A stretch of DNA of 64,000 bases from Dehalogenimonas etheniformans (GTDB lineage Bacteria; Chloroflexota; Dehalococcoidia; Dehalococcoidales; Dehalococcoidaceae). The translations under genes and the position numbers were made by a program. The notes beneath the pieces are model-generated. The model searched no databases. It was not told where the DNA came from and saw only the letters and a program-made list of their open reading frames with translations. The DNA lies in assembly GCF_014672715.2 (NCBI RefSeq), contig NZ_CP058566.2, forward strand, positions 496,001-560,000, in the 5' to 3' direction. Shown piece after piece: positions 2,402 through 7,667 of the stretch; the stretch's first letter is position 1; every line of letters begins with the position of its first letter.

Positions 2402-3463
2402 CTAGGCTCCCTGGACGGCTTTCGAAAAAGCCTTCCAGAAGGGGTCAACGATCGGATGGACAAGGCGAGTCTCTCGGCCTCGGTCGACGAGTACCATCCC
2501 GGCTTCGGGCGGGGTCAATTCCCCGATGATCGACGACGGGATTCCTTTAGCACTGAGCGCCTGGATGATGTCGCAAGCCTTATGCGGCCGGCAGGTGATG
2601 ATCAAGGTGCCTTCGGAAATGGCGGCGTAAGGATCGCTTATACCGAACAGGCGGCAAATTTCGGGCACGCCGTCGGCGACGACAATGTCGTCTTTAATGA
2701 TCCTGGCGCCCAAGCCGGCGGCCTGGGCTACCTCGAATAAGCCGCCCCAGATGCCGCACTCCGTGGCGTCATGCATAGAACTAACCCCGTTGTCGCGGAC
2801 ACCTACCGAGACCGCGGCCAGGGCGTCATCGACCACCGACATCCGGTAAAAAAGCCCCTCGGCGCGGCGGGCAAAATCATCTCCGAATTCCTTTGCGATC
2901 AGACCCGGGAACACCGCGGCGAAGATACCGCAGGCTTCAATGGCGGGACCTTTGGTGACAATGATCTTGTCGCCCTCCTTGGCGAAACGCGGGGATACGT
3001 ATTCAGAAAGTTCACCGGTGCCAATCATGGTAGCGCCCCCGACCATGGGATAGTTGCAGCCTTCATAACGGGCGGTGTGGCCGGTGATAATATTAATACC
3101 CATCTTTTCGCATTCCCGGTGCATGACCTCCCACATTGAAGCCAACTGTTCCTTGGTCATGTCCATCGGTAGATTGAGGTCGATCGACAGGAATTTGGGC
3201 TTGAGACCTGAAGTGACCGAATCCGAGGCGATGATGTGAATGGCGAACCATGCGGCGCGCTCGAAGCCATATTGAGGCACGATGAAAATAGGATCGGTAG
3301 TGAATGATACCGCCTTGCCGCCGATCTCTGCGATGCCGACGTCGACACCATGCTGAGGACCGACCAGAACCTTATCACTTTTGGCGCCAAGACGGGGGAA
3401 AATTATCTCCCGGAAAATTTCCGGAGAGATTTTGCCAATTTCAGGCATTTCAGCAGTGGCCAT
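2402..3463 (-). CDS. AIR synthase / HypE-like protein under TPP riboswitch control
   Basis: A 353-residue protein of the PurM/HypE/ThiL (AIR synthase) superfamily. These enzymes bind ATP and phosphorylate or activate a substrate. It shows a VSFTTDPIF strand near residue 52, an ITGHTARYEG loop, a MHDATECGIWGGL glycine-rich helix near residue 230 (compare MRDPTRGGL in HypE), and a C-terminal domain ending without the PRIC tail of HypE. Position as first gene behind a TPP riboswitch and directly before thiE suggests a thiamine role. A thiamine-monophosphate kinase substituting for canonical ThiL is one possibility. It lacks the usual ThiL GDDAA motif, so exact function is unknown. An AAGGAG ribosome site precedes the ATG. 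Confidence 0.75.
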   Translation of the reverse strand: MATAEMPEIGKISPEIFREIIFPRLGAKSDKVLVGPQHGVDVGIAEIGGKAVSFTTDPIFIVPQYGFERAAWFAIHIIASDSVTSGLKPKFLSIDLNLPMDMTKEQLASMWEVMHRECEKMGINIITGHTARYEGCNYPMVGGATMIGTGELSEYVSPRFAKEGDKIIVTKGPAIEACGIFAAVFPGLIAKEFGDDFARRAEGLFYRMSVVDDALAAVSVGVRDNGVSSMHDATECGIWGGLFEVAQAAGLGARIIKDDIVVADGVPEICRLFGISDPYAAISEGTLIITCRPHKACDIIQALSAKGIPSSIIGELTPPEAGMVLVDRGRETRLVHPIVDPFWKAFSKAVQGA

Positions 3464-3488: not shown

Positions 3489-3520
3489 AAATTCCGGAAG
3501 GCAATGCGCTTCCGGAATTT
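3489..3520 (-). terminator. Expression-platform hairpin of the TPP riboswitch
   Basis: A perfect 12-base inverted repeat (AAATTCCGGAAG / CTTCCGGAATTT, 8-base loop) lies between the riboswitch aptamer and the AIR-synthase-like start codon. On the minus strand it is followed by a T-rich stretch (TATTTTATG). It probably acts as the ligand-dependent terminator, about 25 bases before the ATG. Confidence 0.7.
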
Positions 3521-3613
3521 ATCTACTTCCCTACGCTCGCATTACCGAGACCAGGTTCCAAGGGTCGCCCCGATCAATAATCGGGTCTCTCAGCCTTTCG
3601 GCTCCCCCAGTAA
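3521..3613 (-). promoter_or_regulatory. TPP riboswitch (THI element)
   Basis: Reading the minus strand gives the conserved TPP aptamer segments in order: GGGGGAGCC, GGCTGAGAGACCC, then CCCTTGGAACCTG, GGTAATGCGAGCG and TAGGGAAG. These are the P2/P3 GCUGAGA core and the P4/P5 GAACCUG...UAAUGC...GCGUAGGGAA core. A strong hairpin follows, so control is probably by transcription termination. It governs the AIR-synthase-like gene and thiE. Confidence 0.95.
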
Positions 3614-3656
3614 ATCCTATTCAATTGTAGGTTATGATAGCATAAATTAAGGGCGG

Positions 3657-4790
3657 CTAATAGCGTAGCACCGCGGCGACACCGGTGTCGCTCGGCAGTT
3701 CATCCGATTTGAGAGAATACACGTTGCCGCCAGTGGCAAGTGTTTTCTTGATCAGAAACTCTATAAGATCGTAAGCGCCGTTGGATGGTTCTTTGACTAC
3801 CTTGACGCAATGTTCGGCTTCGTCGAAGGCGCCCCAGCGCTCCAGTCCTTCGGCGAAGAAAAGAGAATAAACCCGCCCGTCGACCGCTGCCGGAATGACC
3901 TGCGCCAGATCGCTGATCGAAGGACCCTGGCCGGTGGCATTGATATATTGGGAAAGCCTCTTAGACTGCTCCTGCATGAAATATGGGCGCACTAATTTCC
4001 AGGCATTTTTCTGCAGAGTATCCGGGTTTACCCGGTCCGGGTTGCCTTCAATGCCTTCGGAGAGCAAATTGTCGTAGCTGCAAACCGTTCGGAATAGAGC
4101 ACGGTGGTTTTCTACTCCAGCAACGACAAGGGGCGCTTTTTCACCGGCCAATACGGTTTCCAGGCTACGGTTTACCTGCTGGAAAAATATGGCCGCGCGT
4201 TCCTTTTCCAGGTCATTGGGGGCGCCTTGTCCGTGGAACATGGTAGCCCCGGCTCCTAGGGTATGTTGCTGGAGCTGTTTTTCAGCTTCGTCATAACGCA
4301 TGGATTCCTCAAGGCTATGCGGCATCTTAACCGGAATGATTTCCTGGCAATTACCCATCAGGCACCTGAAAAAAGCCGCCCGGTTCAGACTTAGGGCCAG
4401 AAGATAATAGACTCCATCGTTGATCACTAGAGGCAAAAGGGGCTTTATGAAGTACTCGCCGGATGCCACCGCGGTCTCGGCGACCTCAAAGGGCAGATTG
4501 AAATGGGAGAATGAATTTCTAGAAATAAAGAGGGCGAGTCCTTCCTCCTGGTGCTGCCAAAACAGAGCATCCCGGAGCAATTCCCGGGCGGGCGAAAGCA
4601 GATTGCGGGCTTCCGCGGTTTTCAATCCCATTTGAGTGAGTTTGGTTTCGGCATCATCAAGGAGATGCCGCAGGAGCAGGGGATCGCCTTCCATATCGGC
4701 AACGCGGTGGGTGGGCATGTAAATAGAGACTGCCGGACCATCCGGTTTTTGAAGCAGGGTCAGCAGATCAGCTTTTCTCAACACATCCAT
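3657..4790 (-). CDS. Bacterial archaeo-eukaryotic release factor (baeRF) family protein
   Basis: A 377-residue protein resembling the bacterial aeRF1-like families (baeRF3/7 type): it opens with a short helix and the VSIYMPTHR strand, has a central domain with PLVVAGVENHRALFR, and ends in a GGNVYSLKSDELPSD segment typical of the C-terminal L7Ae-like fold. Known family members are proposed to act on stalled ribosomes or stress-bound ribosomes; no biochemical role is shown here. A GGAGG site lies upstream of the ATG. It diverges from the YtxH cluster, which suggests a shared stress context. Confidence 0.75.
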   Translation of the reverse strand: MDVLRKADLLTLLQKPDGPAVSIYMPTHRVADMEGDPLLLRHLLDDAETKLTQMGLKTAEARNLLSPARELLRDALFWQHQEEGLALFISRNSFSHFNLPFEVAETAVASGEYFIKPLLPLVINDGVYYLLALSLNRAAFFRCLMGNCQEIIPVKMPHSLEESMRYDEAEKQLQQHTLGAGATMFHGQGAPNDLEKERAAIFFQQVNRSLETVLAGEKAPLVVAGVENHRALFRTVCSYDNLLSEGIEGNPDRVNPDTLQKNAWKLVRPYFMQEQSKRLSQYINATGQGPSISDLAQVIPAAVDGRVYSLFFAEGLERWGAFDEAEHCVKVVKEPSNGAYDLIEFLIKKTLATGGNVYSLKSDELPSDTGVAAVLRY

Positions 4791-5121: not shown

Positions 5122-5358
5122 ATGGAAGAGAACACAAACAGAGGTTTACTGGCAGGGCTGTTGATGGGGACAGCTATCGGTGTCGGTCTGGGCTTATTGT
5201 ACGCTCCCAGGAGCGGCGCCGAAACCAGGGACATGCTGCGAAAACGTGCTGATGAAATGAAAAGCCGCGCTGAATCCCTGGGCAATTCAATCCGGGATAA
5301 AGTCGCCGCAATCGGTCATCCAATAGGAGGTGACGGTTCGGGAGAAGCAGAGCCTTAA
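5122..5358 (+). CDS. YtxH-domain protein, copy 1
   Basis: A 78-residue protein of the YtxH (general-stress / gas-vesicle-like) family. It starts with a glycine-rich membrane segment (LLAGLLMGTAIGVGLGLLYAPRSG, residues about 9-32) ending in the family hallmark YAPxSG, followed by a charged amphipathic helix (residues 33-65) and a short acidic tail. A strong AGGAGGG site precedes the ATG. First of three paralogues in a row. The molecular role of the family is not established. Confidence 0.85.
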   Translation: MEENTNRGLLAGLLMGTAIGVGLGLLYAPRSGAETRDMLRKRADEMKSRAESLGNSIRDKVAAIGHPIGGDGSGEAEP

Positions 5359-5387
5359 ACCGCGAGATAAATAAGGGAGGTTGGATT

Positions 5388-5642
5388 ATGGAGAAAGGAA
5401 AAGTCATGGGAATTGCTGCCGGTGTTTTAGCCGGGGCGGCCTTTGGGGCTGGCGCAGCGTTGCTGCTGGCTCCACAGTCCGGCCGAAAAACTAGGAGCGA
5501 TATCCGAAAACGAGCAGAAGACCTGAAAGCGCGAGCCGACAGCTTTGTTGCTGATATCAAAGAACGCGATGAAGCCTTTTGCCAGGCGGTCAAGGAAGGC
5601 GCTGACGATTACCGCCGGGATATGATGGCAAAGTACGGATAA
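5388..5642 (+). CDS. YtxH-domain protein, copy 2
   Basis: An 84-residue YtxH paralogue: MEKGKVMGIAAGVLAGAA opens a glycine/alanine-rich membrane helix that ends in LLLAPQSGRKTR, followed by a charged coiled-coil-like helix. AGGGAGG precedes the ATG at the right distance. It lies 29 bases after copy 1 and is probably co-transcribed. Confidence 0.85.
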   Translation: MEKGKVMGIAAGVLAGAAFGAGAALLLAPQSGRKTRSDIRKRAEDLKARADSFVADIKERDEAFCQAVKEGADDYRRDMMAKYG

Positions 5643-5687
5643 CTTAAAGAGCTGCGATTCGTTGTAAAAAATAAAAGGAGGAATCAA

Positions 5688-5921
5688 ATGGAAAAAGGTG
5701 TGACCAAAGGTTTGGCAATCGGACTCATCGTCGGGGCGGCGATCGGAGCTGGGCTGGGACTGTTGTATGCCCCTCAGTCGGGTAAAAAGACCCGCAAGGA
5801 GATCATTGACAGGGCTGAAGACTTCACCGACACCGTCAAAGAGCGTGCTGAAAAATTCAGTGACCTGGTGGGCAGCAAGACCGATAAATACCGCAAAAAG
5901 ATCATGGAATCGATCTCCTAA
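5688..5921 (+). CDS. YtxH-domain protein, copy 3
   Basis: A 77-residue YtxH paralogue with the same plan: a glycine-rich N-terminal membrane segment ending in LLYAPQSGKKTR and a charged helix containing EDFTDTVKERAEKF. AAAGGAGG precedes the ATG. It ends the three-gene cluster and is followed within about 60 bases by a long perfect hairpin. Confidence 0.85.
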   Translation: MEKGVTKGLAIGLIVGAAIGAGLGLLYAPQSGKKTRKEIIDRAEDFTDTVKERAEKFSDLVGSKTDKYRKKIMESIS

Positions 5922-6426: not shown

Positions 6427-7017
6427 TTACCCCGGTCCGGCAGTTTGTGAAGAATATGGCCATCTATCCGCGTCCAGGGTATAGATAAGGCCCTCGCAAG
6501 TGTTGCCGCCCCGGACCGATTCCGCGTAATATCCAGCCTGGACCATGCCCAGACGGGAGGCTAACCTCCGAGAGCGGAAGTTACGGGGATCGACGTCGAC
6601 AGTGATTCTGCGTTTGCCCAGGGCACTGAACAGATGGGAGGTGACCGCCGGCACTGCTTCTGTGGCATAACCTTTGCCTTGAAATTCCGGAGCTAGGGTG
6701 AATCCCAGTTCAACTTCACCACGCTCGGCGTTAACGAAATGGATTCCGATATCGCCTATCAAGATGTGATCGTCGCCGAGGAAAATACCCAGTTGGTACC
6801 AGGTTCCCGGTTGATCAAGCTGATCTGCGGTGCCGGAGATGAAGGCGGCCGCATCGGATATCGCGGCAGGGTGAAACGATTGGTAGAGGTAAACATCCGG
6901 AAGCGACCGGTATGAGAACAACGCCCCGGCATCACCCTGATTCAGCTTCCGAAGCCGGAGTCTTTCAGTTTGGATCGAAACTTCAGCAGCCGGCAAAGAG
7001 TTTACCCGACGCCTCAA
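6427..7017 (-). CDS. GNAT-family N-acetyltransferase (RimJ/RimL type)
   Basis: Transfers an acetyl group from acetyl-CoA to an amine; the substrate cannot be told. The 196-residue sequence shows the RimL-like opening TERLRLRKLNQGDAGALF, the acetyl-CoA-binding segment FTLAPEFQGKGYATEA (Q/RxxGxG/A) and DPRNFRSRRLASRLGM near the C-terminus. The frame opens with TTG one base after the stop of the glutaredoxin-PDZ gene, so the two probably form one operon. Confidence 0.85.
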   Translation of the reverse strand: MRRRVNSLPAAEVSIQTERLRLRKLNQGDAGALFSYRSLPDVYLYQSFHPAAISDAAAFISGTADQLDQPGTWYQLGIFLGDDHILIGDIGIHFVNAERGEVELGFTLAPEFQGKGYATEAVPAVTSHLFSALGKRRITVDVDPRNFRSRRLASRLGMVQAGYYAESVRGGNTCEGLIYTLDADRWPYSSQTAGPG

Positions 7018-7018
7018 G

Positions 7019-7540
7019 TTACAACAGCCCTTCAGCCTGACGCGGCTGGCCTTCCCGGAAGAAACCGATGCGGATCCGGGCCCCTTTCTCCAGACGTGAT
7101 AAAGCCAGGTTGAGGTCTGAAGCGGTGTTCACAGCCGTGGCGTCGATCCGGGTGATGACGTCGCCGGGTTTGAGACCAGCTTGTGCCGCGGGCATTCCGG
7201 GTTTAACTGCGCCGATGTAGGCGCCCGAGAGAACCCCCAGGCCATGAGCGGCGCTATACTTGGCGGCATCAGCCACAGAAGCGCCGAACGAAGGCGCCTG
7301 GGAAGCCCTGGCTTGCGAAAGGTAATATTCAAGCTGCTGACGGTCGAAACCGATCACCAGTTTGCCATCGATGTCGGTAACCGGAACAGCCATTCTGCCG
7401 GTTCGCCGGGCCAATTCTTGGGCGGCAGAGGCGTCACGAGACACGTCAATCTCTTCAAAGGGTATACCGCGTTGTGAAAGGAACTCTTTCACGGTATGGC
7501 AGTGCGGTCAGGTCTGAGTGGTGTAAACGGTCACTTTCAT
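7019..7540 (-). CDS. Glutaredoxin-PDZ protein with in-frame TGA (candidate selenoprotein)
   Basis: A glutaredoxin/thioredoxin-fold domain (residues 1 to about 80) joined to a PDZ domain (residues about 90-173, with GAYIGAVKPGMPAAQAGLKPGD). From an ATG at 7540, preceded by GAGG, the frame reads MKVTVYTTQT, a TGA at 7508-7510, then PHCHTVKEF. The family motif here is T-C-P-x-C, so TGA sits exactly at the first catalytic Cys. The frame after the TGA is clean to the stop at 7019. Residues fit NrdH/Grx-like proteins (AVPVTDIDGKLVIGFD). A hairpin starting 11 bases after the TGA fits a bacterial SECIS. Alternatives are a nonsense mutation or restart at the GTG at 7492, which would drop the redox motif. 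Confidence 0.8.
7464..7497 (-). promoter_or_regulatory. Candidate bacterial SECIS hairpin
   Basis: In the mRNA, ten bases after UGA comes AUACC, then a perfect 7-base-pair stem GUGAAAG/CUUUCAC with the 5-base loop AGUUC, a 5-base bulge, and GGUAU pairing with AUACC. The loop has G at its second position followed by U. That G lies 24 bases past the UGA, inside the range usual for SelB-binding hairpins. Confidence 0.65.
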
Positions 7541-7667
7541 ATCTATTTTACCTCATAATTAGTATATCGCTACTCTTTGTTACGCTCAAAATCCGGAAGT
7601 GACTTGCTCGCGAAGGAACGGTATTATTACTGTTTGATAACAAGCCTCAGAACCTGGAGGAAGGCGA

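Follow-up and report, generated by a model that had tools for sequence, protein, structure and literature searches.

A gene of Dehalogenimonas etheniformans that appears to be broken by a stop codon is almost certainly intact, making a small redox protein with selenocysteine (Sec) in its active site. The gene, which fuses a glutaredoxin domain to a PDZ domain (Grx-PDZ), lies in the 64,000 bp stretch of DNA that was analysed as a whole (the window), corresponding to bases 496001-560000 of the complete 2,068,322 bp genome. Judged from its sequence and from those of its relatives, it is very likely to be a real selenoprotein gene. The following features of the gene were identified (here and below in window coordinates, unless the genome is named):

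7019..7540, minus strand: Sec-glutaredoxin-PDZ gene, 173 codons followed by TAA, with TGA as codon 11
7508..7510, minus strand: TGA predicted from the frame and the homologues to be read as selenocysteine (U11 in a U-P-H-C motif)
7551..7554, minus strand: GAGG ribosome-binding site, 10 nt 5' of the ATG, identified by direct reading
7561..7589, minus strand: weak sigma-70-like promoter match (TTGAGC-17-TATACT, 9/12), in a scan with a background of approximately one match of such quality per shuffled region

Translation of the minus strand from 7540 to 7019 gives MKVTVYTTQT-TGA-PHCHTVKEFLSQRG...AEGLL-TAA, a product of 173 residues in which the TGA of codon 11 is the sole internal stop. The original prediction, made from the DNA sequence of the window, was that the frame is clean on both sides of the TGA and starts at an ATG with GAGG upstream. 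Both statements are borne out by the translation, with the ATG at 7540-7538 and the GAGG at 7554-7551, and in the seven other genomes of the genus the frame is retained before and after the TGA (68-89% identity). Without recoding, an ORF finder yields a 157 aa ORF from a GTG at 7492, a start that falls past the first catalytic residue and within the hairpin described below.

It had also been proposed that the TGA occupies the position of the first catalytic Cys of a CPxC site, and the homologues do have Cys at this position. TGA is found at codon 11 in 8/8 genomes of the genus and in 17 further Dehalococcoidia (seven genomes of the order and ten of the class), the frames of which are otherwise open. 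Other relatives carry TGC or TGT (Cys), the main alternative to TGA, and no other stop codon was found at this position among the homologues. The homologue alignment suggested as a check on the prediction thus contains TGA or Cys at this site rather than random stops, with one Ser. This Ser is encoded by TCA in an orthologue (L037, genome G013) in which the hairpin is perfect and the genome of which has both selA and tRNA-Sec; either Sec gave way to Ser very recently, or one base is wrong in this metagenome-assembled genome (MAG). At least six Sec/Cys switches are required by the best tree topology, three of which are forced by well-supported branches. The order also contains Sec glutaredoxins of this family that consist of a single domain (L043, L047 and L053). 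The complete genomes of a sister genus (G008-G010) lack the Grx-PDZ gene and also lack selA. A wide scan of 84,980 species genomes used a pattern that demanded Cys and so retrieved Cys forms only; among the 80 loci listed, all matches with both domains are from Chloroflexota.

The TGA is followed by a putative bacterial SECIS (bSECIS) element:

7474..7492, minus strand: candidate SECIS hairpin, with a 7 bp stem (GUGAAAG/CUUUCAC, 7492-7486 with 7480-7474) and the loop AGUUC (7485-7481)

The 7 bp stem and AGUUC loop are as originally described, but the stem begins 15 nt past the TGA and not 11. The GU of the loop does correspond to nt 24-25 past the TGA, and the assertion that the hairpin suits the range of bacterial SECIS elements also holds. 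According to the relevant passages of a 2026 review (PMC13188914), a bSECIS element has a loop of 3-9 nt with a G in the first two loop positions, a stem of 4-16 bp, a location 16-37 nt from the UGA and an MFE ≤ -7.5. The window hairpin lies within all of these published limits, with a loop of 5 nt (beginning A-G, with G second), a stem of 7 bp, a spacing of 22 nt and a folding energy of -7.9 kcal/mol.

Comparison of the window sequence alone with codon-shuffled controls gave p ~0.02, and such p-values are modest for each gene. When the homologues were compared (these genes being related to each other), all seven stem pairs were found in the same columns in 25/28 Sec genes versus 0/33 Cys genes, and the mean folding z relative to synonymous-codon shuffles was -2.46 for the Sec genes and -0.25 for the Cys genes. 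In the Sec alignment, 94.9% of cells are paired (versus 34.7-64.8% when the partner strand is slid), both sides of a pair have changed together in 7 cells (versus 2.6 ± 1.1 following shuffling) and the second stem pair varies among U-A, U-G and C-G. In the Cys set, 48% of cells are paired and there is no excess of paired changes. Among the three Sec genes that depart from this pattern, two have their own 7 bp stem shifted by one base, while the third has a 7 bp stem one step up. L156 and L160 (genomes G294 and G274, of one family) have a one-base shift of the stem and a GGUU loop; in the tree, they are Sec forms within a mostly Cys clade. The shifted hairpin and this position in the tree suggest that the SECIS element of these two genes was gained independently. 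A tree-aware analysis of the association between hairpin and Sec averaged 3.7 pairs in the expected direction and 0.0 in the opposite direction, in a test that cannot reach significance because there are only four supported independent pairs. The conservation of the frame around the TGA and the excess of the hairpin over shuffled sequences confirm that the observation is real and more than chance.

A search of the genome for selA, selB, selC and selD, which had been suggested as a further check, identified all four genes in one cluster, in the order selC, selD, selA, selB and within bp 2021937-2026516 of the genome:

2021937 (genome): selC, 70.0 bits, identified by ARAGORN as tRNA-SeC with anticodon TCA
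2022078 (genome): selD, 362 bits, with its own in-frame TGA
2023144 (genome): selA, 525 bits
2024663 (genome): selB, 354 bits

The fdnG gene of the same genome has one in-frame UGA, and the sequence after it can form a hairpin with an apical AGUUU. Where a Sec form could be located (25 genomes), a selA match above the cut-off accompanies it in 23; the remaining two are incomplete MAGs, G032 (94% complete) and G114 (85% complete). In G032, the UGA and SECIS element are present (locus L035) and neither a selA match nor a strong tRNA-Sec match was found; incompleteness may explain the absence of selA. The original prediction regarded selenocysteine use as poorly documented in this lineage. This view has to be abandoned, as such use is already published for Dehalogenimonas: tRNA-Sec, SelD and formate dehydrogenase selenoproteins have been reported for D. 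alkenigignens (PMC4918011), selCDAB and Sec-FdnG across the genus (PMC13390414) and a Sec formate dehydrogenase for strain GP (PMC7729418).

Could the TGA be a real stop, leaving either a pseudogene or a 157-residue product initiated at GTG 7492? The mechanical ORF list does include this ORF, but initiation there, within the SECIS stem, would delete strand 1 along with the first catalytic residue. Furthermore, the start, the 10 codons that precede the TGA and the motif have been retained throughout the genus as well as among Cys homologues, and the TGA is kept in 8/8 species with no other stop in any of them, making termination at this codon very unlikely. The probability that the codon is a sequencing error is vanishingly small: while a single base change would restore a Cys codon (TGC or TGT), the same TGA and hairpin occur in eight separate genomes of the genus and in 17 other Dehalococcoidia, and the Cys homologues are without the hairpin. 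Reading of the UGA by some other means, whether through reassignment to Trp or Cys or through leaky termination, is extremely unlikely. A changed code would also leave frames open across UGA, but in this lineage UGA terminates ordinary genes under table 11 (the orthologue L039 itself ends in TGA), the recoded site aligns with a catalytic Cys rather than with Trp, and the gene has a SECIS-like hairpin in a genome with a complete sel cluster.

The predicted selenoprotein has two domains, the second of which was absent from the original description:

7319..7540, minus strand: glutaredoxin domain, approximately residues 1-74 (PF00462; TIGR02196, YruB family)
7022..7288, minus strand: PDZ domain, approximately residues 85-173 (PF13180; HtrA/DegQ type)

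The glutaredoxin domain scores 69.9 bits with PF00462 (gathering score 22.9) and 94.7 bits with NCBIfam TIGR02196 (YruB glutaredoxin; curated cut-off 88.55). With C written for U, the protein scores 60.1 with NCBIfam NF041212 (Uxx-star), below the cut-off of 66, which some of its orthologues exceed. Its score with NF041199 (Trx7/PDZ seleno) is 45.6 relative to a cut-off of 300, with a match to the PDZ part only. The catalytic motif is U11-P-H-C14, with U in the first and C in the second catalytic position, and the resolving Cys14 is invariant among the aligned homologues. Both domains are present in an AlphaFold2 model (mean pLDDT 86.8), the pTM of which (0.61) leaves their mutual placement uncertain. 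No signal peptide is apparent. The C-terminal tail was considered as a ligand for the protein's own PDZ domain, and this idea was dropped because the model assigns the last residues to the PDZ domain itself, as its final strand.

The gene immediately following Grx-PDZ is as follows:

6427..7017, minus strand: GNAT acetyltransferase gene, co-directional, starting directly 3' of the Grx-PDZ gene

A GNAT acetyltransferase is encoded in the same region in 6/8 genomes of the genus, and none was seen outside it. The genus-level neighbours are the GNAT acetyltransferase, YtxH and YgbA_NO. The existence of a conserved operon partner was rejected because no neighbour is consistent outside of the genus, and for the same reason no client can be deduced from the context. 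A cation-efflux gene lies divergently upstream of Grx-PDZ and is not conserved as a neighbour. Elsewhere in the window, a gene encoding a baeRF (bacterial archaeo-eukaryotic release factor) family protein lies beside small YtxH-like genes at 3657-4790 (minus strand) and 5122-5921 (plus strand); this region is conserved in the genus, and the HMM match covers the first YtxH gene only. A TPP riboswitch (RF00059, 67.9 bits) is located at 3511-3618 on the minus strand, upstream of genes for an AIR-synthase-related protein (2402-3463) and the thiamine phosphate synthase ThiE (1752-2387).

A second locus of the genome encodes a Cys paralogue of the Sec glutaredoxin. At L185 (490-2643; genome approximately 1642490-1644643), genes for an MsrA-like/glutaredoxin (Cys) fusion, a TrxR-like flavoprotein and an MsrB-like protein are found in a row, where the names MsrA and MsrB were read from the sequences and not from HMM matches. 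The Cys paralogue thus appears to be wired to methionine sulfoxide reduction. In all, the genome has two genes for TrxR-like flavoproteins, at 671169 and 1643335.

In the proposed mechanism, SelB carrying Sec-tRNA(Sec) would bind the hairpin just 3' of UGA(11) in the cell and decode this codon as selenocysteine. The product would be a cytosolic protein in which a U-P-H-C glutaredoxin domain is joined to a PDZ domain of the HtrA type. Its selenolate would attack a client disulfide or a sulfenyl or selenenyl sulfur, following which the resolving Cys14 would release the client. The resulting Se-S bond would most likely be re-reduced by a thioredoxin-reductase-like flavoprotein. Analysis of the protein and its relatives indicates that Grx-PDZ probably acts as a disulfide reductase. 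The PDZ domain may dock clients via their C-termini, a role that we suggest tentatively. Together, the cGrx1 protein described below and the Cys paralogue at L185 lead us to infer a cytosolic selenol-disulfide reductase that is recycled by a TrxR-like enzyme and for which the PDZ domain may choose the clients.

A different function is conceivable for the same selenoprotein, in which the UxxC head would serve not as a disulfide reductase but as a ligand for, or carrier of, a metal(loid) or selenium. According to the part of the 2026 review (PMC13188914) that deals with them, UXX-star proteins may use their Sec to bind metals or unknown substrates; the window protein is near to the Uxx-star cut-off (60.1 versus 66), some orthologues pass it, and the cation-efflux gene lies divergently upstream. 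However, this gene is not a conserved neighbour, the resolving Cys14 is invariant and the nearest relative of solved structure has been described as a thiol-disulfide oxidoreductase acting on MsrA (PMC7642778). We consider a ligand or carrier role to be unlikely, and a disulfide reductase remains the preferred reading.

As a broader and speculative proposal, the Grx-PDZ proteins could be Chloroflexota-specific, substrate-directed selenoredoxins in which a cytosolic PDZ domain steers the redox head to particular C-termini; the head would have switched repeatedly from one to the other of Sec and Cys, and SECIS elements would have arisen more than once, in different registers. Dehalogenimonas bacteria respire organohalides and break down chlorinated contaminants of groundwater. 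The gene enlarges their small known set of selenoproteins by one and suggests that formate dehydrogenase is not the only thing affected by their selenium supply. Such a gene is easily mis-annotated, because a standard ORF caller places its start past the first catalytic residue. The family also provides a compact natural series of Sec, Cys and Ser forms (the Ser form retaining a SECIS element) in which the interchange of Sec and Cys can be studied.

Among characterized proteins, the closest solved structure is that of cGrx1 from Clostridium (Alkaliphilus) oremlandii (PDB 7c10, with a TM score of 0.93 to the 73-residue target and 52% identity over these 73 residues; also 7c12). cGrx1 contains selenocysteine natively, in a U(or C)PXC motif; it has been proposed to reduce selenoprotein MsrA and is described with GSH as its reductant (PMC7642778). 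It shares with the window protein the same fold and the same UPxC site, with Sec first and a resolving Cys, but it is a single-domain protein, whereas the window protein adds a PDZ domain and is found in Chloroflexota. Of the related family models, TIGR02196 (YruB) describes the glutaredoxin domain only (74 positions), with no PDZ domain, and is silent on Sec. NF041212 (Uxx-star (seleno)protein) shares the domain and the UxxC motif, with the window protein falling just under its cut-off. NF041199 (Trx7/PDZ (seleno)protein) is likewise a selenoprotein family in which a redox domain is paired with PDZ; it differs in having another thioredoxin-fold domain and CxxU rather than the UxxC of the window protein. 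Sec-FdnG and Sec-SelD of Dehalogenimonas share with Grx-PDZ the genome, the sel machinery and an in-frame UGA (followed in FdnG by a downstream hairpin), but these proteins are unrelated to it and were already published (PMC4918011, PMC13390414, PMC7729418). A word search for glutaredoxin in PMC4918011 and PMC13390414 gave no mention, and neither literature searches nor the table passages of PMC13188914 revealed a Grx-PDZ fusion as a selenoprotein. Sec-glutaredoxin itself is an established selenoprotein family, listed in Table 1 of that review. The Grx-PDZ selenoprotein therefore belongs to a known kind, the Sec-glutaredoxins, within which its fusion to a PDZ domain is unusual.
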